Part shown: positions 50,944 through 63,180 of the stretch, in pieces
Numbering within the stretch: position 1 is the stretch's first letter
Layout: each line of letters starts with the position of its first letter
From: Bradyrhizobium cenepequi
GTDB taxonomy: Bacteria; Pseudomonadota; Alphaproteobacteria; Rhizobiales; Xanthobacteraceae
Direction: 5' to 3'
Assembly (NCBI RefSeq): GCF_020329485.1
Contig: NZ_JAGKJI010000001.1
Location: forward strand, 434,001-498,000
Length of the DNA: 64,000 nt
Position numbers and translations under genes: made by a program
The notes under the pieces: generated by a model
Databases searched by the model: none
Told to the model about the DNA's origin: nothing
The model's input: the letters and a program-made list of their open reading frames with translations, nothing else

Positions 50944-51020
50944 GCAGTTGTAGCTCAGTTGGTTAGAGCGCCTGTCTGTGGAACAGGAGGTCGGTGGTTC
51001 GAGCCCACCCAACTGTACCA
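50944..51020 (+). tRNA. tRNA-His (GTG anticodon)
   Basis: A 77-base cloverleaf with CCA encoded. The D-arm is GCTC-AGTTGGTTA-GAGC, the anticodon stem CCTGT/ACAGG has loop CTGTGGA (anticodon GTG), and the T-arm is GGTGG-TTCGAGC-CCACC. The acceptor is GCAGTTG/CAACTGT with A73, and base -1 is T, so the usual G-1:C73 pair of tRNA-His is absent, as known for alphaproteobacteria. Its 3' 45 bases form the left attachment site of the element. Confidence 0.96.
50976..51020 (+). repeat. Left attachment repeat (tRNA-His 3' half)
   Basis: CTGTGGAACAGGAGGTCGGT to ...CAACTGTACCA is identical over 45 bases to 63136-63180. The match starts in the anticodon loop and ends at the CCA; flanks differ on both sides. 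The full tRNA is intact here. Confidence 0.93.
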
Positions 51021-51063
51021 ATGAAATCAACCATTTAGTCAGACACCATTTGTTCGCTTCCAA

Positions 51064-51088
51064 TTTGGGTAGCGATTTAGGTATCGAT
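51064..51088 (+). promoter_or_regulatory. Putative left arm-type integrase sites
   Basis: TTTGGGTAGCGAT (51064-51076) is followed by the variant TTTAGGTATCGAT (51076-51088). The first is an exact copy of 62974-62986 near the right end. Two tandem sites 44-68 bases inside the attachment repeat fit arm-type binding by the integrase. Between here and 51268 no gene is seen. Confidence 0.6.
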
Positions 51089-51267
51089 CAACTTTACCCC
51101 TGAGAACTTGTTCATCGATCTCTCAAAAATAACACCCCGCGAAGCTCAGGCTGGTCGCGCATTGCAGGGCTAGCTGCGTCTGGACAAAACAAAACTATAG
51201 GTAGGACGCAGACGATTTGGCATATGCTTGGGAACCTCCTGAGTCGCCCTGAGATGCTGGTCTCCAA

Positions 51268-53022
51268 ATGGATCGTCGTGAAGAGCTTTTCGGCCGAGTG
51301 CGCCAGGGCGCCGAAGCGTTGGCTGCCCTTGCCAATGGTGGGACGAACATCCCCCTTAACGAATACATCGATCGCTCCAGCCTAGACGCGCTCTGTGACT
51401 CTTTGGCGCTCGATGCGGAGACCTGGAAGGCAGAAGATCTTGAGCGCATCCTGATCATCCGGGACGGGCTTTACGATCTGCGCAACAAGCTGCGAGATGT
51501 GGACGAAAACGCCGCGCATTCCGTCGATCGTATTCTCTCAGCGGGAGATCGGTTGTATGCCGATCTCGAACGCGCCTTTCGTGAACTAAAGAAAGAAGAC
51601 CTTGAAGCCGCGCAGGCTCACATTGCGGCCCTGCATCGTGGCCCTCATATCGCTGGCGCCGCCGTCCCGCAGACATTGGATGCGATGAGCAGGAGCGCGG
51701 GCGAGGTAATAACGCAGGCGCATAGCTCGCTCAGGCATCTCGATCTAAACCTCATGAAGGTCGATCGATCAAATCCGGACTTTGAGGTGTTGAAGAGCGT
51801 CAAGCTCTCAGTCCAACGCCTTAGCGCAAGCGTGTTTGCGATCAAGCTGTCGGCACAACAGAACGTCATCTACTATGGCGTTGTTAAGCTGCTCAGTGAC
51901 GGCGCAGACAAAGTGGTCGCTGAGCTGAGGCAGTTGTTGCAAAAAATCCAGACGAACTATGAAAAGGCAGCGAACTTTATCGGTGAATTAAGCCAGCTTG
52001 CGGATCAGGGCTCGCGGTTCTCACGGCTTGTCGCCAATTTCCTAGGAACGGCGTTTCTCGACCTTGATCGAAAAACCGAAGTCGTCGTTCAAATCAAGGT
52101 GCAGTCGTACCACAATGGCGAGGCGATCTTATGCGCTGCACCTCAAGGTGACACCATTCTGCTTATCGGAAAGAACGGCAGCGCTTGGGTTGGCGATCCT
52201 AAGACAGGTTCGATCAAACCGCGATTTCGCGTACATGACCGGGCAGTTTTTGCCGCAAAGGCCTTCAAGAATGAACTCAACGAAAACGTCCTGGCTATAG
52301 GCACAGAGGACGGTCTTGCAATTTTGATGCAGGACATGAGGGATGAACGATATCGAAGTCATATCCGTGAGCGCGTTGTTTCGATCGTATCCCCGCCTTG
52401 GGGCGCGAAGGGATCGCGGGGTACAATCGTTTCGGGATCACGGGACGGCACAGTTAGAAGATGGACCTTAGCCGAGGATCGTCTCTCTCAGATCAGTGAC
52501 GAGTCCTATGAACAGGTCGGACGGCGGCTGCAATGCATGGCCGTCAACGGAATGGACGTGATTGCTGCGAGTTCGAGAGAATTGGTTTTTCTTGACCACA
52601 ATATGAATACGCTTCGAACCGTGCAGGTGCCCAACGAGGTTGCAAGCATGGATGTCATCAACAACGATACTCTCGTTGTCTGTGGCGAAGGCCACATTAC
52701 TCATGTAAATCTGGCTGGGGGCTCGTTTTCCCGAATGATCACTGCGTCCAACGATGCAACATATTGCTGTGTCGCAGCTCGCGACATCGACTCTTTCTAT
52801 TTTGGCACGACCTCGGGGAGAGTTGGTGTCATGCAGCTTTCATCCGGAGTTGAGCTCGGCTCTACGGACGTAGGCTTTCCGCTCAGGGGAATAGTGACCT
52901 CGGGAAATAAGCTGCTGGCGTATGGTGGCGAGTGGAACAAGAACGGTCGTGCGGGAAGAGCAGCCGCGTTCCTTACTGTTGAAACTAAAACGCAGCCGGT
53001 ATCAGAAGCGATTGAACCTTAA
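51268..53022 (+). CDS. Helical plus WD40-type beta-propeller protein, novel architecture
   Basis: A 584-residue cytoplasmic-type protein of unknown function. Residues 1-270 are almost wholly helical, with heptad-like stretches (LKKEDLEAAQAHIAALHRGP; VVAELRQLLQKIQTNYEKAA). From about 290 to 570 the sequence becomes beta-rich with WD40-like blades; the clearest is IVSGSRDGTVRRWTL. No nuclease, ATPase, protease or TIR motif is visible. The DNA is AT-richer than the surrounding genome. The membrane-protein gene starts at the base after the TAA, so the two are likely one system. The start codon has only a weak ribosome site. Confidence 0.75.
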   Translation: MDRREELFGRVRQGAEALAALANGGTNIPLNEYIDRSSLDALCDSLALDAETWKAEDLERILIIRDGLYDLRNKLRDVDENAAHSVDRILSAGDRLYADLERAFRELKKEDLEAAQAHIAALHRGPHIAGAAVPQTLDAMSRSAGEVITQAHSSLRHLDLNLMKVDRSNPDFEVLKSVKLSVQRLSASVFAIKLSAQQNVIYYGVVKLLSDGADKVVAELRQLLQKIQTNYEKAANFIGELSQLADQGSRFSRLVANFLGTAFLDLDRKTEVVVQIKVQSYHNGEAILCAAPQGDTILLIGKNGSAWVGDPKTGSIKPRFRVHDRAVFAAKAFKNELNENVLAIGTEDGLAILMQDMRDERYRSHIRERVVSIVSPPWGAKGSRGTIVSGSRDGTVRRWTLAEDRLSQISDESYEQVGRRLQCMAVNGMDVIAASSRELVFLDHNMNTLRTVQVPNEVASMDVINNDTLVVCGEGHITHVNLAGGSFSRMITASNDATYCCVAARDIDSFYFGTTSGRVGVMQLSSGVELGSTDVGFPLRGIVTSGNKLLAYGGEWNKNGRAGRAAAFLTVETKTQPVSEAIEP

Positions 53023-53448
53023 ATGGCTGAATTAGATGACTGGTTCAAAAAGCAGGCCGAGCCGCTGGGCATATTTGATCTTGCGAGCAAATGGGCTGAA
53101 GCCCTCAAGGTAATCGGGGCTGGGAACGGTGCAGGATTGCTCGCTGCCGGAGCCGCCCTGAGCAGCTTCGCTAAGAGTCCTGCGATGTTGCCGAGTATCA
53201 AGATCGGCGGGACTTTCTTTTTCATTGGTGTTATGAGTTTCGCCCTTTCGTTCGCGCTAATTCAGCTTGCGATTTTCTCTTACGACGAGATGCTGCACGC
53301 GATTAGAACCAAATCCGCCGACGCGGCGAAGAAGAACAAAACAACTTCTTCATCCGCAATGATCGCAGCAAATTGGCTAGCGATTTTATCTGCACTAGCG
53401 TTTTTTGGTGGGCTGACTTTTGGATTGATTGCCTTTCTTAAAGCATAG
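53023..53448 (+). CDS. Small membrane protein paired with the WD40 protein
   Basis: A 141-residue protein. An amphipathic N-terminus (AELDDWFKKQAEPLGIFDLA) precedes a weakly hydrophobic segment (GNGAGLLAAGAALSSF), a clear membrane helix at about 66-88 (FFFIGVMSFALSFALIQLAI), a charged loop and a final helix (NWLAILSALAFFGGLTFGLI). It starts immediately after the WD40 gene stop, with no own ribosome site, so translation is coupled. It could be the membrane effector of the pair. No family recognised. Confidence 0.75.
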   Translation: MAELDDWFKKQAEPLGIFDLASKWAEALKVIGAGNGAGLLAAGAALSSFAKSPAMLPSIKIGGTFFFIGVMSFALSFALIQLAIFSYDEMLHAIRTKSADAAKKNKTTSSSAMIAANWLAILSALAFFGGLTFGLIAFLKA

Positions 53449-53548
53449 TGCCCATCGAGCCGTTAGCGCATCGGTTCGAGCCCGAATGCGGAACCAGACG
53501 GCGGGTTAACCATTGTTTTTAACCCCTGAGGGCGTCCTATTTTGTAAG

Positions 53549-54007
53549 ATGACCCGGAGAGATGCGGGGCCGACAATGAGGACTTTGTACCGTTACGACG
53601 ATCCGAGAGCCACGACGCGAAAGCGAAAAGTCTACGTCGCGTTTCTGGAGGGCGGAGAGAAAAAGGCTCGTTCCGTGGCGGAACAGCTTAAGATATCGCC
53701 CTTTTCTGTCCCAATGTGGCTCCGTGAGTTTAGATCGCCTAAGCCGACGAGCAAACCGAAGAAGAAAGGACAGAAGTCATTTCTGAGCCCGGGTGCAGTT
53801 TCGAACCGACGAGTCATGTATCTGGCATATCTTAAAGGGGGTCGTGACGCCGCGATATTAGTTGGGCAGACCATTGGTTTGGCCGAAGTCACCATCCTTC
53901 ACAACATTAGCTTGTTTAACAAGGGTCAACGCGGCGTGTCTCAGCGGAAGTCCAGGAAAGCAAACAACAGCGAGCGCCCGCCGTCGCTCGACGGGAAGGT
54001 TACCTAA
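53549..54007 (+). CDS. Basic protein with duplicated helix-turn-helix
   Basis: About 152 residues. Two roughly 36-residue blocks align with each other: RKVYVAFLEGGEKKARSVAE (then QLKISPFSVPMWLREF) and RRVMYLAYLKGGRDAAILVG (then QTIGLAEVTILHNISLF). Each looks like a tri-helical DNA-binding unit. The linker and tail are Lys/Ser/Pro-rich. It may regulate the element. The start is uncertain (ATG 53549 or 53576, or TTG 53513). The GC content differs from that of the adjacent cassette. Confidence 0.55.
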   Translation: MTRRDAGPTMRTLYRYDDPRATTRKRKVYVAFLEGGEKKARSVAEQLKISPFSVPMWLREFRSPKPTSKPKKKGQKSFLSPGAVSNRRVMYLAYLKGGRDAAILVGQTIGLAEVTILHNISLFNKGQRGVSQRKSRKANNSERPPSLDGKVT

Positions 54008-54361
54008 ACGAGGCGACGGCGGGCTTTCGATCGCGGGACGCTCTCCGCAATCGGCTTGATCATCGCGTCTTGCAGGGTCAGGCCATGATCTCCGGACCGT
54101 TACTTGCCTCCGAGGAGGCGCGTCGACCTGTCCAGTGCGACGCCCGATCGCTTGAACGTCGATCGGAATTGGTGTCGGCCACGTCGTCGGGCGGCGACTG
54201 CCGACTCTGGGGTCTGGCCTGTCTAACACCGTCTCCCAGCCCACCCCGCGAACGCGATAAAGCCGCGCTCGTGGAGATCGAGCCGCGTCGGGCAACTCCC
54301 AACCCGACCGCTCGGACTCGACAGTCCAAGGAACCACAAAGCCGTCGAGGATCGTAATCAT
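53858..54361 (-). CDS. Doubtful open frame at the end of the packaging cluster
   Basis: The ATG at 54361 overlaps the preceding gene stop (ATGA), and the first 20 residues (MITILDGFVVPWTVESERSG) look protein-like. The rest is rich in Arg/Pro with poor codon pattern, and its 3' end overlaps the double-HTH gene on the other strand by 150 bases and runs through a hairpin. It may be a shorter or frameshifted gene; I cannot resolve which. Confidence 0.3.
   Translation of the reverse strand: MITILDGFVVPWTVESERSGWELPDAARSPRARLYRVRGVGWETVLDRPDPRVGSRRPTTWPTPIPIDVQAIGRRTGQVDAPPRRQVTVRRSWPDPARRDDQADCGERPAIESPPSPRLGNLPVERRRALAVVCFPGLPLRHAALTLVKQANVVKDGDFGQTNGLPN
53976..54024. terminator. Bidirectional hairpin at the end of the double-HTH gene
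   Basis: GCCCGCCGTCGC (53976-53987) pairs perfectly with GCGACGGCGGGC (54013-54024) around a 25-base loop holding the stop codon of the HTH gene; TTTC follows on the plus strand. It separates the rightward cassette from the leftward packaging cluster. Confidence 0.55.
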
Positions 54362-55182
54362 GCTGCTGCGCTCGCCATCTTGCGAACCGTGAGGCCAAGC
54401 AAAGCCCGAATATCGACGTTCGGCCTGTGCTCGATCAGCGTTCCTTCCTCGCGTGCTGCGTCGATATGCGTGCATTCAAGCCGCTCAAGCTCGAACAATT
54501 CCGCCTTGATCTCGTCGAGGCGCTGCTTGCGATCGGCTGCATCCATCTGCAGCGAGGGCTTGGGCCTCGTCGCGTCGATCATCTCATAGAACCGATGCTG
54601 CACGAGTGCAGGGTCAATCCAGCTGAGCACTTCCAAGGGCGTTGGTGCTCTTTCCCCGATGACGCCGCGCCCGAACTCTAGCTCGAATTTCCCATGCTCA
54701 ATGATGAGACGCGCTGGATATCGTTCAGCGAGGGATTGAACATATCGACGTGCCGCAGCCTTCATTTCCTTGGTCGTAGGCGATGCGCGGTCGACACGAC
54801 CACGCTCCGATACGAGGTTATCGATCTGGCTCCGCAGTCGTCGCACAGCTTGCAGATGGGTCTCGTTCGGCTTTGGTTTCAATTTGATCGGCTTCGCATC
54901 ATCGAGAGTGACATGCGCCGGCAATAGCTCCAAGTATCTTGCGACTTTCGCATTGAGGTCGGCGAGCGCCCTGTGTCGCGCCTGATTGGCGGGCTGCAAT
55001 AACTTCAGCCGCTCGATCTCCTGTCTAAGTGCGTCCGCTTTGTCGCCGTGGGGGTTTATGTCATACGCACGGCTTGCCTCGGAGATGGTGCGTTGAGTTG
55101 ACGTCAGGATAGCGTGCGCCTGATGCTCCGCATCCTTGAGCGTCATGATTTTCGATTGTACTCGGGGCGGTAGTTCAGACAT
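54358..55182 (-). CDS. Phage-like hypothetical protein, 274 residues
   Basis: A soluble, highly helical protein. An N-terminal coiled-coil region (DAEHQAHAILTSTQRTISEA; LRQEIERLKLLQPANQARHR) is followed by a mixed central part (YPARLIIEHGKFELEFGRGV) and a C-terminal helix (DEIKAELFELERLECTHIDA). AGGAGG lies ten bases before the ATG. It lies downstream of the terminase in the leftward cluster. No family is recognised; a packaging accessory or scaffold-like role is only positional inference. Confidence 0.7.
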   Translation of the reverse strand: MSELPPRVQSKIMTLKDAEHQAHAILTSTQRTISEASRAYDINPHGDKADALRQEIERLKLLQPANQARHRALADLNAKVARYLELLPAHVTLDDAKPIKLKPKPNETHLQAVRRLRSQIDNLVSERGRVDRASPTTKEMKAAARRYVQSLAERYPARLIIEHGKFELEFGRGVIGERAPTPLEVLSWIDPALVQHRFYEMIDATRPKPSLQMDAADRKQRLDEIKAELFELERLECTHIDAAREEGTLIEHRPNVDIRALLGLTVRKMASAAA

Positions 55183-55242
55183 TGATGATTAACCTCCTAC
55201 GGTTGTGAGGCCCGCCAATTGCTTGGCGAGCCTAGGTCTCTT

Positions 55243-55734
55243 TTACTTTGCCCACGCTTCCGAGATACGCTTGTCTCTCGCAGCAATGAGTTCGGCGTGA
55301 GTTGGCATCGCATTTGATGTCGTTGCCGTGGTCGTCACCTGCTGTTGATCGACGATCGCAGGCGGGTTTCGCCATGCGTTCGAGAGCTTGGCGTTCCTCT
55401 CGTCGCGCAAGCGCTCCTTGTTCGTCGCTGCAGATGCATCGAGAACGCCGAAGCCGGGCTTGTGCCCCGCTGCCGATACGTCCGCTGGCGTTACGGCCGG
55501 GCCGGCAATCGCATCGGCCATCGCATCGATCACGGATTTGCCGCTGTTGACGGCCTCGACGAACGCGTCCCGCTGGTGCGGCTTGAGCGCCGACGTGGCA
55601 TCCCGCAGCCGGACGCCCGCGTCCATCATCCTCATAGGCACGCTGACGACCTTGCCGTCTTCGACGATTTCATCACGCCGACGCGTGCGGCGGCCGTATC
55701 TGTCGAACACTTCATCGTTGGTAGTCGTAGTCAT
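55243..55734 (-). CDS. Phage-like hypothetical protein, 163 residues
   Basis: MTTTTNDEVFDRYGRRTRRR, then a helical middle (LKPHQRDAFVEAVNSGKSVI) and a low-complexity end (TTTATTSNAMPTHAELIAAR). Its ribosome site AGGAG lies within the last codons of the terminase gene, so expression is coupled to it. It resembles small structural or accessory proteins of phages in style only. Confidence 0.68.
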   Translation of the reverse strand: MTTTTNDEVFDRYGRRTRRRDEIVEDGKVVSVPMRMMDAGVRLRDATSALKPHQRDAFVEAVNSGKSVIDAMADAIAGPAVTPADVSAAGHKPGFGVLDASAATNKERLRDERNAKLSNAWRNPPAIVDQQQVTTTATTSNAMPTHAELIAARDKRISEAWAK

Positions 55735-55737
55735 AGT

Positions 55738-57300
55738 TCAAACTCCTCTCATAGTTAGAAATCCGCTCAGTCTCTCTGCAGCATTGCTGCGTTCCGAAGG
55801 TCCCCCGACCCACTGAAGTGATGCATCGTATTTGTAACGTTTCGTCGAAAGGTGAACGATCGCACCCGCGGCAGAATTGCAGAGGTCATCGTGGTGTCCA
55901 CCTCGTGGGGGATGGTCGATCGTTTCGCGCGATGATCCGCGTGCCGTTGATCGCTCCAAGGCCGTGAACTGGAGGATCATTCGCTCGTTATCGAGAAGCT
56001 GGACACGCTTGGAGTTCAGCATCGGCAGAAACTCGGCATAGATCGCAGATTTTCGCTTCGCGCTCTGCTCAAGCCTCACGCCGTGCTTTGCAAATGCATA
56101 AACGACGAAGCCGCCCGCGTAACCATCGCCGACGATGAAATTCACGCCGAAGGATTTAAGTACCTCGCAGTACTCCTTGACGACGTCATCAGTCGAGAAC
56201 GGCGGACGAGTCTCGCGCAGAACGTCCAGCACTCCGATATCGCCTTCACGATGCGCAATGCCGAGACAGAATGAGTCCTGTCCTGTCCCTCCCGCCGCAT
56301 CGATGAAGCCCACGTATTTTATGCCCGGTGACGGCATCAACTCATGACGTCCGTCGATGATGCACGCCTCGACAGCCTCGCGGCTAACGAAGGCCTCAAG
56401 GTCGCTGCGGAACTGAGCGCCATACTCTGCGGATGCAGACACCGCGTCACGTTCGTACTGCTCGGCTATGAAGGCGGGATCGATTTCCCGGTTCATCACG
56501 TCAGTCGCTGCCTGCCAGCACAGCACCCGAGGGTCGTCCTTGCCGTGATACTGGCGATGCATGTTGTAGAGAACACCTCTGCGAGCATATGGGCTGCTGG
56601 CTAACAGCAGCATGCTCGTTGGTATGGTGGCCATGCCCGGTCGGATCGCGTTGACCACTTCGACGTCTGGGTTTGAAGAGTCTTCCGATTGCCACCACGC
56701 TATTTCGTCGCATGCAGCGCCGACTATCGTGCGACCGCGAACAGTGCGGAAGGAGGAGGTTGTAATCTCTATCGAGATGGAGTTGGACAATTCAAGGCCG
56801 TGTTGGGTCTCGCGTTCGATCATGCGCGAGAGCATCGGAACGTTCTTGATCAGGCCTTTGGTGTATCTGAGGATGACGCGAGCCTGATCCTTGTCCGCAG
56901 CTAGAACCTGGACGACGCCAAGCTCGCCTTCGTCGAGATATTGACGATAGTCGTGGAAGCATGCGAGCCAGACGGCAATCAATGCGAGGATGCGGGATTT
57001 GCCTCCGCGCCGACCGATGACGAGGACGCATTCACGGGCTTGCTGCGTAGGAGGATCGGTGCGGCCTGTGCATTGCTGATAGATCGCAAGCTCCTCATCC
57101 GACATGGACAAGCCGAATGCGGCTGCGATGAACGCACGCCATGCGATCCAGCTTTCAGGATTAGGGAAGAACTGCGCGAACAACTTGGGGTCGTCAATGG
57201 CGTGTAGCAGCGTGAAGGCGGGTTTTGGTGGAAGCTTGGAGCGTGGTGCGGGCTTGTGGTCTGGGTCTAGTCGTTCTCGCACCAGCTTCTTCTGCTTCAT
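55738..57300 (-). CDS. Terminase large subunit
   Basis: 520 residues. The ATPase half has Walker A VIGRRGGKSRILAL and Walker B IVGAACDEIAWW (GAACDE). The C-terminal RNase H-like nuclease shows acidic residues in YVGFIDAAGGTGQDSF, FIVGDGYAG and HHDDLCNSAAGA. Both active sites look intact. It packages phage DNA into proheads using ATP. The start overlaps the upstream 76-residue gene (ATGA). No portal or capsid genes lie nearby. Confidence 0.93.
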   Translation of the reverse strand: MKQKKLVRERLDPDHKPAPRSKLPPKPAFTLLHAIDDPKLFAQFFPNPESWIAWRAFIAAAFGLSMSDEELAIYQQCTGRTDPPTQQARECVLVIGRRGGKSRILALIAVWLACFHDYRQYLDEGELGVVQVLAADKDQARVILRYTKGLIKNVPMLSRMIERETQHGLELSNSISIEITTSSFRTVRGRTIVGAACDEIAWWQSEDSSNPDVEVVNAIRPGMATIPTSMLLLASSPYARRGVLYNMHRQYHGKDDPRVLCWQAATDVMNREIDPAFIAEQYERDAVSASAEYGAQFRSDLEAFVSREAVEACIIDGRHELMPSPGIKYVGFIDAAGGTGQDSFCLGIAHREGDIGVLDVLRETRPPFSTDDVVKEYCEVLKSFGVNFIVGDGYAGGFVVYAFAKHGVRLEQSAKRKSAIYAEFLPMLNSKRVQLLDNERMILQFTALERSTARGSSRETIDHPPRGGHHDDLCNSAAGAIVHLSTKRYKYDASLQWVGGPSERSNAAERLSGFLTMRGV

Positions 57301-57527
57301 GAAGCCTCGTTTCGGTTCGCCAACCAGAGTGTGAGGTCTTCGCCCATAATCACGGCTCGCATCAGATCATCATCGCGCAGTTCGTCATCCGTGAAGCCGC
57401 GCAGCGTGATCAGGCGAGCGCCGCCATCAAGCTCGCGCACGGTGATCACGTGCGCGGAGTGTGTAAGGCCCGGAATGATCGAGGTCTGGATCAGGAGATC
57501 GGAGACTTGTGCAATCCCGTCCTTCAT
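57297..57527 (-). CDS. Small phage-like protein, 76 residues
   Basis: From ATG 57527 with GGAGA upstream: MKDGIAQVSDLLIQTSIIPG and VRELDGGARLITLRGFTDDE. It sits between the candidate small terminase and the large terminase, overlapping the latter by four bases and starting two bases from the former's stop. The function is unknown; a TTG at 57533 is a possible alternative start. Confidence 0.65.
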   Translation of the reverse strand: MKDGIAQVSDLLIQTSIIPGLTHSAHVITVRELDGGARLITLRGFTDDELRDDDLMRAVIMGEDLTLWLANRNEAS

Positions 57528-57529
57528 GC

Positions 57530-57970
57530 TCAATCTCCAAGCCGCTCGCGGTGTGATCGGCGAGAGCCGCCACGTGCGGCGTACTCCAATGGGTCTAGGT
57601 CGTCGTCATCATCACGCTGTCCCGATGTGGCGCTCAGCAGGCCGACCTTCTTCATCAGCCGGCTTTGCGTGTTCGCGAGGCGCTGGTATTCAAGCCGCTC
57701 TTCATGTCCGCACGCGCCAGTCTTCATGTAGGCAAGCTCCATGTCTTCAAGCTGGCATTGCATGAACGCGACGCGTCGAACAAAGGCACGCTCCATCTCC
57801 GTGATCTTGTCAGCGCCCCCCAGCGACTCGGTGTATGCGTCAACGAGGTCTTGGAAGCGCAGGCCCCGTGGCGTCCGCATATCGAGCCGTTCCGTGAACA
57901 GGCGTGCGCCGGACGTAACTGCGGAGCGTGTTCTGCGCGTCTTGCGGGCCTTCGGTAGAGTGCCGTGCAT
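57530..57970 (-). CDS. Candidate terminase small subunit
   Basis: 146 residues. A basic N-terminus (LPKARKTRRTRSAVTSGARL), helical core (RFQDLVDAYTESLGGADKIT; ERAFVRRVAFMQCQLEDMEL) and acidic tail (DDDDDLDPLEYAARG) match the usual size and layout of small terminases. It lies two genes upstream of the large terminase in the same operon. The call rests on position and composition; the sequence family was not recognised. Confidence 0.5.
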   Translation of the reverse strand: MHGTLPKARKTRRTRSAVTSGARLFTERLDMRTPRGLRFQDLVDAYTESLGGADKITEMERAFVRRVAFMQCQLEDMELAYMKTGACGHEERLEYQRLANTQSRLMKKVGLLSATSGQRDDDDDLDPLEYAARGGSRRSHRERLGD

Positions 57971-58274
57971 CCTGCGATCTCTATTTGGACGTGATGCGTG
58001 AATACATTCGACGTCTTTCCTGTCTGATTGATACCCAACGGGCTACCTAAGACTAGCCCTGAGTGGCGAGCCCTGTATTTGTTGCGGTTTTCGCCGGTGA
58101 TTTGCAGTTCCGACCACCTGTTGCATCATCAGGTGGTCTCAAATCAGCGTGCATGGACGCTTAGACGAACTAAATAAATCGGGCGATGGATGCGTGATTG
58201 CCACCAAAAATAGGCCGTATTCGATCGTCGATGAAATCCATGTTCGTGATCACACAGAGACTAGGATTTCGGCT
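57971..58274. other. Gap with a perfect hairpin
   Basis: This 304-base stretch upstream of the packaging cluster contains GACCACCTG (58111-58119) and CAGGTGGTC (58129-58137), perfect nine-base arms with a nine-base loop. It is a possible operator or packaging-related signal. A 62-codon frame on the plus strand lacks support. The promoter of the packaging genes should lie here. Confidence 0.45.
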
Positions 58275-58676
58275 TCATCTTTTCCGCTCGCGCTGATACT
58301 CACGCCGATAGCCTTCAAGCCGCTGCTTGTCGATTAGGCCTTCCTCGATCAGAAGCTTGACGATCTCGCGCATTTCGTTGCGTACGGTGCTAACGAGAAC
58401 GGCCGATCCGGGATAATTCGCCCGTCGCAGTTCGTCGCATACTTCTCCGAAGGTATCGGTCTGCAATGTGAGCCGCCTGATTTTTGATTTCAGGCCTCGC
58501 TCCGTGACATTCCGTTCTTCCCTTTTCGTGGTCTCATGTTGTGCGGCTTTGGGGCGGCAGAGATATGGCTTGGGCTTATTCTTCCGCGTTCCTATATTGC
58601 GCGGGATTGTTTCGAGGCTGATGCGGCGTCGTTTCGCGCCCTTGCCTGCGCACGAGTAGTCGTTGTTCCAGTCCAT
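58275..58676 (-). CDS. Basic hypothetical protein, 133 residues
   Basis: From ATG 58676: MDWNNDYSCAGKGAKRRRIS, then Lys/Arg-rich sequence and helices (VCDELRRANYPGSAVLVSTV; EIVKLLIEEGLIDKQRLEGY), ending YRREYQRERKR. The upstream continuation of the open frame to 58985 has poor coding character. It could be a nucleic-acid-binding protein; no family recognised. The gap 58677-59023 upstream shows nothing else except the promoter space for the divergent response regulator. Confidence 0.55.
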   Translation of the reverse strand: MDWNNDYSCAGKGAKRRRISLETIPRNIGTRKNKPKPYLCRPKAAQHETTKREERNVTERGLKSKIRRLTLQTDTFGEVCDELRRANYPGSAVLVSTVRNEMREIVKLLIEEGLIDKQRLEGYRREYQRERKR

Positions 58677-59023
58677 TATGTTTGGGATTTCCCTCGTTCG
58701 ATGTCGCGAGGGAGCGGCAGGATAGGCGCTGATCGCTCCGATGACTAGGTCCGGACGGATTTCCGATGGAAATCCCTGTCTCTGGGATGGCGATTGCAGC
58801 GGGTACGGGCGCCATGGAGCGGCGTTTCGACGTCCGGACGACATCCGGCCCCCTGTTTGCAAAAACGCGTTGCTCCTGGTATCTGGGTGCCGATGATCAA
58901 ATATAGGAACGTCCCCCCGATGCGAGCATTCAGCAGGCATGCTGCTGATCCACAGCATATTCTCCTCCGGAGTATCCCCAGCCATGATCCCGTCGCTGGG
59001 GTCGCCAAGACCGGGAGGGCGCC

Positions 59024-59434
59024 ATGATGGCAGACAGGCGAGAATTGTTAGCGGGTTGCCGCGTACTGATCGTTGAGGATGAATATTTTCTCGCGGCCGA
59101 TCTGGAGGCGGAATTGAAATCCTGCGGAGCCGAAATCGTCGGTCCGATAGGCAATCTAAGCGAAGCGGTGAAGCAAGTATCTCGTGACGAATTTGATGTG
59201 GCGCTGGTCGACGTCAATCTGCACGGCGAGCCCGCGTATTCGCTGGCCGACGAGTTGGTCAGCAACGAGGTACCGTTCTGTTTTGTAACAGGATACGCTG
59301 CGAAGATACTTCCTACCCGATTTCGACAGATAAAAGTGTGGTCGAAGCCGTTCGAGGTAGGCGATCTTGTGGACTATGTTGCGGAGCTTTGCGATAAAAC
59401 GGTTCGGGGCAAGTTGGCCCACGTCACCGCGTAG
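59024..59434 (+). CDS. Single-domain response regulator
   Basis: 136 residues, receiver only. VLIVEDEYFLAADLEAELKS has the acidic pair, VALVDVNLHGEPAYSLADEL the phospho-acceptor Asp, FVTGYA the Thr and VWSKPFE the Lys, so it should be phosphorylatable. There is no output domain. GGGAGG lies five bases before the ATG. The sequence style is like Rhizobiales chromosomal receivers, so it is unusual cargo for a satellite-sized element. Confidence 0.87.
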   Translation: MMADRRELLAGCRVLIVEDEYFLAADLEAELKSCGAEIVGPIGNLSEAVKQVSRDEFDVALVDVNLHGEPAYSLADELVSNEVPFCFVTGYAAKILPTRFRQIKVWSKPFEVGDLVDYVAELCDKTVRGKLAHVTA

Positions 59435-59487
59435 GGGTGTATCCCACTTTCGGGTGGAGCTGCTGAGCCCTCAGGAAACCTGAGCGC

Positions 59488-59763
59488 CTAAGAGTCTCTG
59501 AGATAGGCACACTGAGGGCATTCTCCATCCGCCGCCATATCCAGTTCGTCCTTGATCGCCGACATGACGTCCTCGCGCATCCACATGGTCCCATCGCTCT
59601 TGAGAAGTGTGGTTGCAAGGGCATACGCGTGGCGCTCTGCATCAGGATCGCCTACGCGAATGATCACGTCAGAATGGCGGGAGCAGGCCTCGATCGCGCC
59701 GGTCTTGGCTAGCGCATGTCGGGCTGCGGACTCTAGCGTGTCGACATAGTCATTTATTGACAT
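59488..59763 (-). CDS. Hypothetical protein, 91 residues
   Basis: MSINDYVDTLESAARHALAK, then RVGDPDAERHAYALATTLLK and a C-terminal CPQCAYLRDS that could bind metal through its CxxC. A GAGGAG site precedes the ATG by about eight bases. It converges on the response regulator. Unknown function. The gap 59764-59860 holds nothing clear. Confidence 0.65.
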   Translation of the reverse strand: MSINDYVDTLESAARHALAKTGAIEACSRHSDVIIRVGDPDAERHAYALATTLLKSDGTMWMREDVMSAIKDELDMAADGECPQCAYLRDS

Positions 59764-59860
59764 GGCAGTCTCTCCTCAGACTGCCCCATTGTCAGGCTCT
59801 ATAGTAAATATGGCATTACGGTCTTTCACGCTGCATCTGCGGCTTGAGAGCTTGATGGGG

Positions 59861-60778
59861 CTAGGACGCATATTCTTGTCCTCTTAGAATACAATCATCC
59901 ATACCTAATGCATTGATTTCATTGTATATGGCCTTTTCCTTAGACTTACGACGCGTAGCCCCCCATGTGAGGGTATCTGGCAGCATTACGAGATCATTGC
60001 TTGTGTGCAGCGTGACACGCTGATGCTGATCGTGCACACGCTGGACGTAGTCTAATTGATCGTGACGCTTCATATACGCGATTAACGCTGTTGCTTCTGG
60101 CAGGCTCCTTGCCTCCTTCATCACCTTGCGGAAAAGCTTTCGTTCCCACTGCCTTCTTTCAAATTCAACAAACCGGATGTGACGAAGCACTAGCCCCGAC
60201 GGGTCTAGATGCTCTAGCCGGTCTAGGCCCAGATGCCGGATCGGCTCTCCTCGTAGCCTCAGATCGAAATGTGCGCAGATGTTGAGGGGATCAAGCTTGG
60301 AGTTCAGGCCCCAGTACAGGCATATATCGCGCAGCGCTCCCTGTATATGAGCGTGAGGACAGTAGTAGCATCCGATCGTCGTGTCTTCGTTCTCGATCTC
60401 CAATATTCGCTTTGCGGTTCGATGCATGAGCAGCATGTGCTCTTTCAAGAACCGGTGCTGCTCCTCGACCGTGTAGTCTTCCGCGTGCCTCGCATCGCAT
60501 CCGATATCGAGCCGGTACAGTTTTCCGGAATTCAGTCGTGTCAGCGCTCGCAACATGTCGGGCTGCGGGCACTGGAAGCCAACGAGCATGTAGCCCATCT
60601 TTCGATTTCGATGGTGATGCGGCGTCGCTCCATAGAGCGTCCGCAGCAGGTTCCAATCTTGCCGCGGCAACGTCGACGTTGGAAAGAACACGATGATGGT
60701 GTCGATGTAACAATCAAAGATGAGCGGGAATATTGGCGGCTTGTTCGACTTGACGGCAGCAGATATTATTCTCGACAT
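59861..60778 (-). CDS. Possible replication initiator (Rep-like), weak
   Basis: 305 residues. Features that recall replication initiators of small phages and plasmids are KLYRLDIGCDARH, the His/Cys-rich YYCPHAHIQGAL and HFDLRLRGEPIRHLGL. The C-terminal half is basic and helical (FERRQWERKLFRKVMKEARS). No clear catalytic tyrosine motif is assigned. It is AT-richer than the core genome. In a satellite this position (after AlpA-like and a small gene) often holds replication genes, so the call is contextual. Confidence 0.4.
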   Translation of the reverse strand: MSRIISAAVKSNKPPIFPLIFDCYIDTIIVFFPTSTLPRQDWNLLRTLYGATPHHHRNRKMGYMLVGFQCPQPDMLRALTRLNSGKLYRLDIGCDARHAEDYTVEEQHRFLKEHMLLMHRTAKRILEIENEDTTIGCYYCPHAHIQGALRDICLYWGLNSKLDPLNICAHFDLRLRGEPIRHLGLDRLEHLDPSGLVLRHIRFVEFERRQWERKLFRKVMKEARSLPEATALIAYMKRHDQLDYVQRVHDQHQRVTLHTSNDLVMLPDTLTWGATRRKSKEKAIYNEINALGMDDCILRGQEYAS

Positions 60779-60851
60779 CGACGATCTCTCTCAGCGGTGA
60801 TCGCTCGTTTCATGAGCTGGACTTTGGACGGTCTGCGTTCGTGATGTTTTT

Positions 60852-60894
60852 GAGGCCCCCGCGTCGGATGGAAACGTGGGGGCCTCTCTTTTTT
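60852..60894 (+). terminator. Plus-strand intrinsic terminator with no plus-strand gene
   Basis: GAGGCCCCCGCG (60852-60863) pairs with CGTGGGGGCCTC (60875-60886, one G-U), followed by TCTTTTTT. The U-tract is on the plus strand only, yet both neighbouring genes are on the minus strand. It implies a short plus-strand transcript ending here, antisense to or upstream of the Rep-like gene. Confidence 0.75.
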
Positions 60895-61091
60895 CAACGT
60901 TGTCTCTTTGTCGATCGATGCTCTCGCTTGATGGCGCGCAATTGCGCGTCCGCGGCTTTCGTGATCGCGTTTGCTTCTTCCACGGTGATCCTTTTGTCGC
61001 GAATATCTTCTAGCGCAGTGAGGAGCGTTTCTATTAGTGCATGTAGATCGTCGGTGCGCGAAGCCGTCGGCTGCCTTTCGGAGTCGCTCAT
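60894..61091 (-). CDS. Small helical protein, 65 residues
   Basis: MSDSERQPTASRTDDLHALI then a continuous charged helix (ETLLTALEDIRDKRITVEEA; NAITKAADAQLRAIKREH). It overlaps the AlpA-like gene by four bases (ATGA), so it is translated with it. Its pattern resembles small prophage proteins of unknown role. Confidence 0.65.
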   Translation of the reverse strand: MSDSERQPTASRTDDLHALIETLLTALEDIRDKRITVEEANAITKAADAQLRAIKREHRSTKRQR

Positions 61092-61342
61092 TTTACGGCC
61101 CTCTTCGCATACTTCTCGACGAGTGCTTCCAGGTCGCTGACGCGGAAATAGAGCTTGCCGCTACGCTGCGGTGTTGCGCTCGCGTTGAGAAAGACCGGAC
61201 GCAGCTCGCCGGCTTTCATCATTCGGCGCAAATGCGAGATGGAGATGCCGCCAAGCATGGCGCAGGCTTGAGAGCGCGAGACTAGAAGGGGAATTTGCGA
61301 TGTGGATGGACTTCGAAAATCGACAGGAATGACCTCAGACAT
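61088..61342 (-). CDS. AlpA/MerR-like DNA-binding protein, possible excisionase
   Basis: From ATG 61342, 84 residues. LLVSRSQACAMLGGISISHL then RRMMKAGELRPVFLN is a winged-helix/AlpA-type motif, with a wing in GKLYFRVSDLEALVEKYAKR. Such proteins next to integrases act as excisionases or activators of element genes. It lies 300 bases downstream of the integrase gene on the same strand. Confidence 0.75.
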   Translation of the reverse strand: MSEVIPVDFRSPSTSQIPLLVSRSQACAMLGGISISHLRRMMKAGELRPVFLNASATPQRSGKLYFRVSDLEALVEKYAKRAVK

Positions 61343-61538
61343 AGCTCGATCCAATAGCTACCGCATCCCGCCGTTGGGCAGGGTTGCGAGAGAATTGGAT
61401 CACAGCCTAAGTCCGTCGTGGACGAAGATGCTCCACGTGATCGACGCCATTGCATCTCAGCGCAGGTCGCCACCGCTCGTGCGGTCCGTGGATAGGATCG
61501 CAATCGCGTCCGTTCCTGTCAATCCCGTTGACGCCTAA
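61329..61538 (+). CDS. Weak candidate plus-strand gene before a terminator
   Basis: An open frame (MTSDIARSNSYRIPPLGRVA to ASVPVNPVDA) ends at TAA 61536-61538, six bases before a plus-strand terminator-like hairpin. It overlaps the start of the AlpA-like gene and has no usable ribosome site. It may be a small element gene or only the 3' part of a non-coding transcript. Confidence 0.25.
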   Translation: MTSDIARSNSYRIPPLGRVARELDHSLSPSWTKMLHVIDAIASQRRSPPLVRSVDRIAIASVPVNPVDA

Positions 61539-61543
61539 TGACG

Positions 61544-61583
61544 CCCCCGCTGGGAGACAGCAGGAGCGGGCCTTCCTGTTTTT
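61544..61583 (+). terminator. Plus-strand terminator-like hairpin near the integrase
   Basis: CCCGCT (61546-61551) pairs with AGCGGG (61565-61570), with an inner alternative GCTG/CAGC, followed by CCTTCCTGTTTTT. The T-rich tail is on the plus strand, opposite to the flanking genes. Confidence 0.5.
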
Positions 61584-61640
61584 CCGCATCCTCCCCTCGG
61601 GAGCGCGTCCAAACGAACGTAGCTCCCCTCTGACTGCGTC

Positions 61641-62942
61641 CTAAGCGCGCCTGGATCGCGTCAGGGAAACCACGTTGGACGGGGCCGGGCCGGAAGGCGT
61701 CCCCCGGTCCGGAGACAAGCCCACGATTTCCGCGATGTGCTCGGAGAGCCGGAGCAGGGCGTCCGCGCGCTTCTCCTTGAACTTCGACCGGATGTAAATC
61801 CGCTTAACTCCGGGAAGCGCGTGCCCGATGGTGACTTCGCCCACTTGCATATCCACGCCGATATCTTCCATCCGAGTGCGAGCAGTGCGCCGCAGATCGT
61901 GCAGCGTCCATTTGTCTTTGAATGGCCGAGGTAGAAGCGCCTCGAGTTCGGCTTTGCGCTGGGAGAACGAATTGAATGGCTTATGCTCGCCGTTATGCTC
62001 GATACCGAAGACGTAGGGGTTGCCTTTGATCCGCGGCAACGACTCTAGGATTTTGAGCGCAAGGGGTGGTAGGCGTAGAATTTGGCCTGTCCCCTTGGCT
62101 CCCTCTTCCTCGCGAATGTGCCAAGTGCCGCCCATGATCTCATCCCATCGGGCCGTTGCAAGGCACTGCCGGCGCTGGGCGGTTAACAGGAGCAGACGAA
62201 CAAGGCCGCCATAGAGCCCGCCCATCTGCTCAGCGGCCCGCCAGACCATGCGGAGTTCGTCATCATCAAGGACGCGATAGTCCCTCGTTCGCTTTTTCTT
62301 GCCGCGCCGCTTCGATTGATAACGGATTGAGGACTCGTAACCTTCGCACAGTCCTTCATCTTCGACCCAAAACAAGAGTGTTCTTACCAAACCGAAGACA
62401 ATATCGGCTTGCCGGTTCCCGTGTTCGGTGCGCATAGAGAGGCGCAACCCTGCGGCGTCGCTCTTCTTGAGATCGAGGAACCGTTTTTTGCCGAGTTTGG
62501 GGATGACATAGCGGCGGTAGCAGCGTGTGACCTCGTCTTTGGTCCGGAAAGTCGAGACCACCTCCTTGATGTAGCGCTCGATCACCTGTTCCATGGTCGC
62601 TGTGTGCCACCATGCTTCTTCGTCCGACTTGGGCTCGTTCGAACCCGGCTCCGGCTCGGCTGGTTTGAACAGTTTCGCGGCTTTCCGCGCCGCCTCAACG
62701 CTGAATTCTTTAGGGTCCCATCGGCCAAGCTTGTAGGTACGCTTCTTTTCGCCCTTGTTCCCGTAGCGGACGCGGAACGTCCGTGCGCCTCCGTATGACA
62801 TCCGGAGAATGAGGTCGGGAAACCCAGTATCGAACCAATCTTCCTGGGGGAGGGTCTGCTTGTGCCGAGCGATCCACGTGTCGCTGAAGCGTTGTTTGCG
62901 TCTCTCCTTCGGTCTCCTGCCGTTCGATGTCTCTTCACTCAC
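61641..62942 (-). CDS. int: Tyrosine site-specific integrase
   Basis: 433 residues. An N-terminal arm-binding/DUF4102-like region (FPDLILRMSYGGARTFRVRY; YKLGRWDPKEFSVEAARKAA) and a core-binding domain (ATMEQVIERYIKEVVSTFRT) precede the catalytic domain. Catalytic residues show in LLTAQRRQCLATARW (Arg), LHDLRRTARTRM (His-x-x-Arg), GHALPG (His) and VKRIYIR (Tyr). It should recombine the element at tRNA-His. It lies about 190 bases inside the right attachment repeat and is transcribed away from it. Confidence 0.94.
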   Translation of the reverse strand: MSEETSNGRRPKERRKQRFSDTWIARHKQTLPQEDWFDTGFPDLILRMSYGGARTFRVRYGNKGEKKRTYKLGRWDPKEFSVEAARKAAKLFKPAEPEPGSNEPKSDEEAWWHTATMEQVIERYIKEVVSTFRTKDEVTRCYRRYVIPKLGKKRFLDLKKSDAAGLRLSMRTEHGNRQADIVFGLVRTLLFWVEDEGLCEGYESSIRYQSKRRGKKKRTRDYRVLDDDELRMVWRAAEQMGGLYGGLVRLLLLTAQRRQCLATARWDEIMGGTWHIREEEGAKGTGQILRLPPLALKILESLPRIKGNPYVFGIEHNGEHKPFNSFSQRKAELEALLPRPFKDKWTLHDLRRTARTRMEDIGVDMQVGEVTIGHALPGVKRIYIRSKFKEKRADALLRLSEHIAEIVGLSPDRGTPSGPAPSNVVSLTRSRRA

Positions 62943-62962
62943 GACGCGCCCCTGAAATCAGT

Positions 62963-62986
62963 TTTGGGTACCTTTTGGGTAGCGAT
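62963..62986 (+). promoter_or_regulatory. Putative right arm-type integrase sites
   Basis: TTTGGGTACC (62963-62972) and TTTGGGTAGCGAT (62974-62986) stand in tandem upstream of the integrase start. The second is identical, in the same orientation, to 51064-51076 at the left end. Confidence 0.6.
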
Positions 62987-63135
62987 CGACAGCAAAGATC
63001 GCTCATCCCGATGAGCCCAAATGATATCAGTTGAAGGGATTTTGGTCTAAATAACTATCTGATTTTACTATAGATTTTGGCGTTGACACCCCGGATGGTT
63101 CTCAATGAATTCCGATGGTGTGATCGAAGACCCTC

Positions 63136-63180
63136 CTGTGGAACAGGAGGTCGGTGGTTCGAGCCCACCCAACTGTACCA
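63136..63180 (+). repeat. Right attachment repeat (displaced tRNA-His 3' end)
   Basis: An exact 45-base copy of 50976-51020 with no 5' half of a tRNA in front. Before it, CTC extends the palindrome of the anticodon stem (CCTCCTG/CAGGAGG). It marks the junction back to chromosomal sequence. Confidence 0.93.

Follow-up and report, generated by a model that had tools for sequence, protein, structure and literature searches.

Does a set of DNA-packaging genes that stands without capsid, portal or tail genes belong to a mobile element that fills the particles of another phage, or is it what a deleted prophage has left behind? The question is raised by a locus of Bradyrhizobium cenepequi (genome of 8.47 Mb in 188 contigs), in a 64-kb stretch of contig NZ_JAGKJI010000001.1 (positions 434,001 to 498,000; hereafter the window, with coordinates counted from its first nucleotide). 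A 12.2-kb element is integrated there at a tRNA-His gene (50976-63180), and an initial annotation had noticed in it a large and a candidate small terminase gene and offered both explanations. We conclude that the element is probably an integrative phage satellite with the layout of a phage-inducible chromosomal island (PICI) that encodes its own packaging motor. Of the two explanations, redirection of a helper phage's packaging appears, from sequence, to be the better supported.

The operon proved to be as annotated, tight and leftward from 57970 to 54358, with a small and a complete large terminase at the same open reading frame (ORF) coordinates. It holds five genes, all leftward (c3, c5 and similar labels denote protein clusters; focal elements are the 19 relatives described below):

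57970-57530, minus strand: TerS, small terminase, 146 aa (family PHROG matches, fold comparison)
57533-57297, minus strand: 78-aa ORF between terS and terL (cluster c48, 4 loci)
57300-55738, minus strand: TerL, large terminase, 520 aa (Pfam, PHROG, aligned motif residues)
55734-55243, minus strand: c5, 163 aa, with a segment in common with DUF2213 head maturation protease (hhalign, alignments)
55182-54358, minus strand: c3, 274 aa, N-terminal helical hairpin, in 18/19 focal elements (AlphaFold2 model)

TerS, the 78-aa ORF and TerL overlap consecutively by 4 bases each. The TerL reading frame is open at full length, and the protein matches terminase PHROGs (best 7.8e-26) and Pfam Terminase_6N (6.1e-5). 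In an alignment of 11 sequences, all candidate motif residues except G99 are invariant; we take these to be a Walker A motif (GRRGGKS, 96-102), the DE at 198-199, and the nuclease acidic residues D334, D392, and D471/D472. The TerS of the window itself had no library match, and within its family two small-terminase PHROGs were matched by one member each of 57 (7e-5 and 7e-4). The closest structure in the PDB to its AlphaFold2 model (pLDDT 82) is the HK97 small terminase (Z = 9.6, 2.7 A over 86 residues; Foldseek E = 1.0), by a small margin, because the first unrelated, non-terminase row reaches Z = 8.8. When the model was compared with BFVD, annotated small terminases made up seven of the first eight rows (best E = 0.033). 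Family members and predicted fold together support the assignment of the 57530-57970 product as a putative small terminase. One TerS-TerL fusion and locus L151 were omitted from set A2, and L020 from set A4.

The same arrangement recurs elsewhere. After removal of 11 duplicate loci, tRNA-anchored repeats spanning TerL were found at 30 of 98 loci and accepted at 28, the weak attachment (att) matches of L086 and L087 being discarded; many loci without att repeats are short or metagenomic contigs. Nineteen of the accepted elements, the window's included, are of the focal type and come from 16 genomes. They measure 11,121-12,766 bp (mean 11,986, standard deviation 583), a narrow range compatible with a size limit imposed by packaging. 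They lie at tRNA-His, -Lys, -Ser or -Met genes. The initial annotation had proposed to search other genomes for the same gene order. All 19 att-flanked elements of the focal type carry integrase, TerS and TerL, and most carry c3 (18/19) and the presumed replication protein c4 (17/19), while any other cluster is found in at most eight. The focal TerLs fall into one clade of 24 rows (SH-aLRT 97) of a quick-method tree of 85 rows, from which duplicates, four near-copies, TerLs under 420 aa and three distant matches had been excluded. Ratios of nonsynonymous to synonymous substitution rates (dN/dS), given solely for pairs above 50% identity, were 0.045-0.135 for TerL (nine pairs), 0.087-0.230 for TerS (seven pairs), and 0.114-0.328 for c3 and c5 where not saturated. 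The focal TerLs are under strong purifying selection. Two of them, from L080 and L097, are 96% identical, while the integrases are about 50% identical and the targets are tRNA-Lys and tRNA-His, respectively; the packaging module therefore moves between integration modules.

Counting fragments and the genome of the window itself, TerL has relatives at E up to 1e-10 in 37 of 265 genomes from the genus, at 36 loci in named genomes assigned to Alphaproteobacteria, Gammaproteobacteria and Acidobacteriota, and on 50 viral contigs, the last few very distant. Matches in phage records were few and weak (6/50,697; best by bit score, 26% identity). Five of 72,556 plasmids matched, four of them with 45-50% identity over 80% or more of the query. 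Among 118 clustered loci (duplicates included, one duplicate locus having been removed beforehand), the TerS cluster was present in 69, as was the integrase cluster. Relatives whose terminase genes run on into portal and capsid genes, named at the outset as the finding that would reduce the locus to a deletion product, do exist, but among far relatives only. Viral contigs with a related TerL can continue into portal clusters c12 and c22, and one of them (L141; TerL 44% identical) continues into c22 and a major head protein, whereas neither cluster is present in the retrieved locus of any of the 24 rows of the focal clade. Tape-measure clusters c61 and c62 share a locus with a TerL relative at L107, L121, L124, L140, L087, L110, L111 and L118; at L121 no clear portal or coat gene follows TerL in the sequence outside a 451-aa frame that overlaps the tape-measure gene. 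The Komagataeibacter plasmid pKNA06 (L168) carries, in this order, genes for a recombinase, TerS, TerL, a DUF2213 protein and a 226-aa protein, with no annotated portal or capsid within the 21.6 of 25.8 kb viewed; the plasmid appears partly duplicated. On the Methylobacterium plasmid pM44601 (L167), TerL is followed by two hypothetical genes, and no capsid genes are annotated in the 18.1 of 58 kb viewed. Since the relatives range from capsid-less elements to loci with portal and head-protein or tape-measure genes, we regard the TerL family as a spectrum whose terminases presumably come from phages. A separate observation on the viral contigs is a portal protein (L127:13138-15882) whose C-terminal part matches topoisomerase IB.

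These data bear on the second explanation, that the locus is the deletion remnant of an ordinary prophage. We reject it as very improbable: 19 att-flanked elements from 16 genomes repeat the combination of integrase, TerS and TerL, share a size class and a core, occupy several tRNA genes and are under purifying selection (TerL dN/dS of 0.045-0.135 in nine pairs), and the TerL of the window retains an open frame and its motifs. What speaks for a remnant is that far TerL relatives continue into portal and major head protein genes, that c5 resembles a shortened head protease, and that a degraded relative is present elsewhere in this genome.

The further claim that nothing else of a phage particle is present in the element stood in one part and not in another: no portal, coat or tail family was seen among those listed, but c5 carries a segment of a prohead protease (DUF2213). 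In the cargo scan, proteins under 110 aa and ten core clusters were excluded, and 130 proteins from the focal elements and 70 others were kept. Among the best 25 of 62 PHROG families matched by the focal proteins there was no portal, coat or tail, no search being aimed at lytic genes, and four were head maturation protease families with one member each. The best 25 of 32 Pfam families likewise held no portal, coat or tail; DUF2213 was among them. Of a set such as that of the capsid-forming PICIs (cf-PICIs), with their own coat, protease, portal and connectors, the families listed contain just TerS, TerL and the protease-like segment. A prophage would show portal and major capsid genes beside TerL; at this locus c5, c3 and cargo follow instead, and c12 and c22 are absent. 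It is extremely improbable that the element builds its own particle from proteins diverged beyond recognition. Although c3 and c4 are without assignment and the scans cover the best 25 of 62 PHROG and the best 25 of 32 Pfam families, no cluster other than integrase, TerS, TerL, c3 and c4 exceeds 8/19 elements, and the fold matches of c3 are coiled coils, with no convincing capsid or portal.

The protease-like segment was traced through longer homologs. The c5 of Nitrobacter locus L073 has 258 aa and a DUF2213-like N part, and the proteases of L108 and L121 align with this protein at 45% identity across some 180 residues; the protease match was placed on L073:11487-12263 by reading the sequence, and the alignment of the L053 and L073 c5 proteins (152 residues, E = 4e-9) agrees. 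The c5 of the window, like that of most relatives, is shorter than that of L073; a segment of 20 residues is preserved (hhalign probability 92, E = 6.7e-7). The short c5 proteins retain a repeated C-terminal tail; by eye, they lack the stretches with histidine and serine that are conserved among the proteases. One trace of head assembly therefore survives in c5. For c3 (AlphaFold2 model, pLDDT 88.7), the fold search gave no viral match at E below 0.04 and no convincing capsid or portal match, and assignment to a known fold was set aside, as it was chiefly the long helices that matched unrelated coiled coils. Homology between c3 and coiled-coil genes of other branches of the family was not demonstrated. 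Both c5 and c3 could act on helper heads.

Among the cargo matches listed, CBASS-type cyclases and 2TM effectors have two members each, and Thoeris is represented by ThsA (one) and ThsB (two); SIR2, restriction and methylation families also occur. Such defence cargo in the same elements, together with the known interference of PICIs with phages (PMC6092414; citations by PMC number refer to portions of the respective texts), could mean that TerS and TerL serve to poison the packaging of invading phages and so protect the host, with transfer being secondary. We consider this quite improbable in view of the retained ATPase and nuclease motif residues, needless for a mere decoy, and of the complete mobile-element anatomy.

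That anatomy comprises the following features:

50944..51020, plus strand: tRNA-His gene, the integration target (ARAGORN)
50976..51020, plus strand: att repeat, tRNA side, 45 nt, the 3' end of tRNA-His (perfect direct repeat)
51067..51085, no strand: doubled motif, tRNA-side copy (per-element motif scan)
51268..53022, plus strand: cargo protein, 584 aa, WD40-like propeller behind a helical N part (Pfam matches of WD40 type, weak and under the cut-off)
53023..53448, plus strand: cargo, small protein of 141 aa, hydrophobic by eye (paired with the 584-aa protein)
58030..58048, no strand: third copy of the doubled motif, inverted, with 59 bp to the terS start (per-element motif scan)
58112..58138, no strand: 9-bp perfect inverted repeat GACCACCTG-N9-CAGGTGGTC (whole or part in some close relatives)
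58275..58985, minus strand: c7, unassigned, in 5/19 focal elements, start codon uncertain (protein clustering)
59861..60778, minus strand: c4, presumed replication protein, in 17/19 focal elements (role inferred from position)
61088..61354, minus strand: AlpA-like regulator, HTH_17 (Pfam/PHROG library matches)
61641..62942, minus strand: tyrosine integrase with arm-binding domain (Pfam/PHROG library matches)
62966..62983, no strand: doubled motif, integrase-side copy (per-element motif scan)
63136..63180, plus strand: att repeat, integrase side, 45 nt (perfect direct repeat)

The two perfect 45-nt repeats are spaced 12,160 bp apart, and GC content in 1-kb windows is 52-60% within the element versus 61-70% across 6 kb upstream. 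Read leftward from the integrase end, the order is integrase, AlpA-like regulator, c4, small genes, TerS, the 78-aa ORF, TerL, c5 and c3; beyond c3, a rightward two-gene cargo beside the tRNA closes the element. Two marks of PICIs are therefore present, a specific att site with an integrase (45-nt repeats at tRNA-His) and an AlpA/MerR-type regulator adjoining int (HTH_17, 61088-61354). A profile of the AlpA-like cluster, c8, found a relative in 13/19 focal elements at E up to 0.01. c4 had no convincing match in Pfam/PHROG library scans and no pri-rep match; other branches of the TerL family carry prim-pol, VapE or D5-type proteins. The cargo pair (c110/c65) recurs in L017, with the 584-aa copy 80% identical, and the 584-aa protein of the window had no PADLOC match. 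The pair at 51268-53448 is perhaps a candidate undescribed defence pair.

Both ends of the element carry a doubled motif, a co-oriented tandem pair of a short word, which occurs three times in the 64 kb, at exactly the three places given above. Well-matched pairs were present at both ends of 23/28 elements versus 17/1056 random internal pairs, and with a perfect score (0) in 11/28 versus 0/1056. The tandem words start 10-13 bp apart and lie 67-210 bp in from one end and 85-195 bp in from the other; the word varies between integrase lineages. For the third copy we relied on per-element scanning rather than on de novo tests, omitting five of the 28 elements (L053, L061, L063, L073 and L084, all focal), which had no clear end word. 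The element's own word was found on the inverted strand within 400 bp of terS with 0, at most 1 and at most 2 mismatches in 5, 6 and 9 of 23 elements, compared with 3, 6 and 29 of 490 when words were swapped between lineages and 0, 2 and 9 of 541 windows elsewhere in the same elements; on the opposite strand, the counts at 0, 1 and 2 mismatches were 0, 1 and 3 of 23. The nine elements with a third copy represent nine different integrase lineages of 18, by our own grouping. In this test the terS starts of L068 and L102 were taken from separate locus inspection and that of L098 was assumed, and L088, with an AT-rich, near-palindromic word, was counted. An earlier de novo three-site test with tight settings had found the triple in 7/28 elements, the window included, and a looser one gave 7/28 versus 37/756 swaps at a score of 4 or less. 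A doubled motif around attP, perhaps bound by integrase arms or AlpA, is described for HE-PICIs and, according to the portion of that work considered here, was not found among the other PICIs studied (PMC10111431). The third, inverted copy upstream of terS is new; it suggests that, in some members of the family, whatever factor binds the element ends also contacts the packaging operon. When a common packaging motif was sought upstream of terS, close relatives shared the inverted repeat and the doubled motif and nothing else. The inverted repeat (58112-58138) sits in a long non-coding stretch upstream of terS.

We also followed the suggestion to look for helper prophages with a related terminase in this genome, and found none: phrog_2 matches fall at the window alone, and apart from it just one TerL relative is present, a 49% fragment. 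The same genome contains a degraded second terminase element (G000:C150:6126-6659; L027, L177) with an ORF that was placed in the TerS cluster and matches the C-terminal part of TerL as well; a truncated c10 ORF (primase-helicase type) lies nearby, with transposase-like ORFs between, by eye. In another genome, a TerL fragment (G084:C3:16796-17662; L026), 68% identical and near tRNA-His, is perhaps a decayed focal-type element.

Several points count against the reading as a satellite with a motor of its own. Neither a helper nor induction, excision or a particle has been observed, and portal cluster c22 was matched in just 9/265 genomes of the genus and nowhere in this one. No clean empty site was seen: among the matches listed from 146 genomes none spans both flanks (in G081 the 45-nt target is intact, and some 3.3 kb of other DNA separates it from the right flank). 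Repeats of 16-19 nt underlie five of the 28 att calls, those of the focal L061, L079 and L084 among them, and L061 has two possible right ends. The c5 protein was clustered in just 8/19 focal elements, 14/23 elements exceed 2 mismatches upstream of terS, so that the third motif is absent or weak there, and tail, neck and scaffold families do turn up when the nine att-flanked elements that fall outside the focal clade are taken together.

A satellite carrying its own motor could work as follows. During growth of a helper phage, the AlpA/integrase module would excise the element, which would then replicate; the satellite TerS would mark its DNA, and TerL would dock on the portal of helper procapsids and fill them, helper tails delivering the DNA. 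The fast-evolving c5 and c3 would probably tune helper head assembly or maturation, and the doubled motif upstream of terS may let the end-binding protein (integrase arm domain or AlpA) control the packaging operon. Known satellites are typically about one-third the size of their helper (PMC10803314); by that ratio one may speculate that the helper is near 36 kb. It is unlikely, in our judgment, that the element is instead a standard PICI-like satellite whose TerS works with the helper's large terminase, its own TerL being a helpful, dispensable captured late gene; redirection by TerS is known for Staphylococcus aureus pathogenicity islands (SaPIs; PMC6092414), but here TerL is as universal as TerS (19/19) and has a low dN/dS. 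A wider proposal is possible, if on balance doubtful: the elements may constitute a widespread satellite class of Alpha- and Gammaproteobacteria and plasmids that owns the motor and borrows shell and tail, its TerL acting on foreign portals, in which a shortened prohead-protease derivative and a coiled-coil protein reshape helper heads to 12 kb and integrase or AlpA at the third site links packaging to excision.

If a satellite with its own motor is the correct reading, a large terminase can work on foreign portals, and motor-portal compatibility becomes directly testable. It would also explain how a terminase family can be present in 37/265 genomes of the genus yet nearly absent from sequenced phages, and would supply markers for finding such elements.

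The element resembles Gram-negative PICIs in size class, specific att sites, int-alpA-replication order, late-zone phage genes and putative phage-resistance cargo (PMC6092414, PMC10111431). It differs from them in the TerS-TerL pair of every focal member and in a c4 without a pri-rep match, and from most of the reference set, in which 21/29 carry a coat gene (PMC10111431), in that none was found in focal elements among the families listed. The co-oriented doubled motif flanking the att core is shared with HE-PICIs (PMC10111431); here, unlike there, the word varies by integrase lineage, and some of the lineages have a third, inverted copy ahead of terS. SaPIs with TerS also have their own small terminase but are described, in the portion cited, with a TerS homologue only (PMC6092414), whereas TerL too is encoded here. 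PICMIs are likewise small and capsid-less with an integrase and replication core, but, by that account, without identifiable packaging genes (PMC10803314). The Pseudomonas satellite AH14b, which is packaged in another phage's capsid as is proposed here, shares the integrase, the AlpA-like regulator and, among the families listed, the lack of structural genes; in the passages considered, no terminase gene is identified in it (PMC4936722). As far as these partial sources go, the satellite families compared take the helper's large terminase or bring motor and shell together. No description of capsid-less satellites with TerS and TerL was recognized in the portions of the open-licence literature covered, the original VEIME, tycheposon and cf-PICI papers lying outside the comparison. 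The cf-PICIs have both terminase subunits as well (introduction of PMC10690885) but add coat, protease, portal and connectors and take only tails from the helper (PMC10690885). The element is best read as a variation on the PICI theme in which the arrangement of capsid-forming PICIs is inverted.

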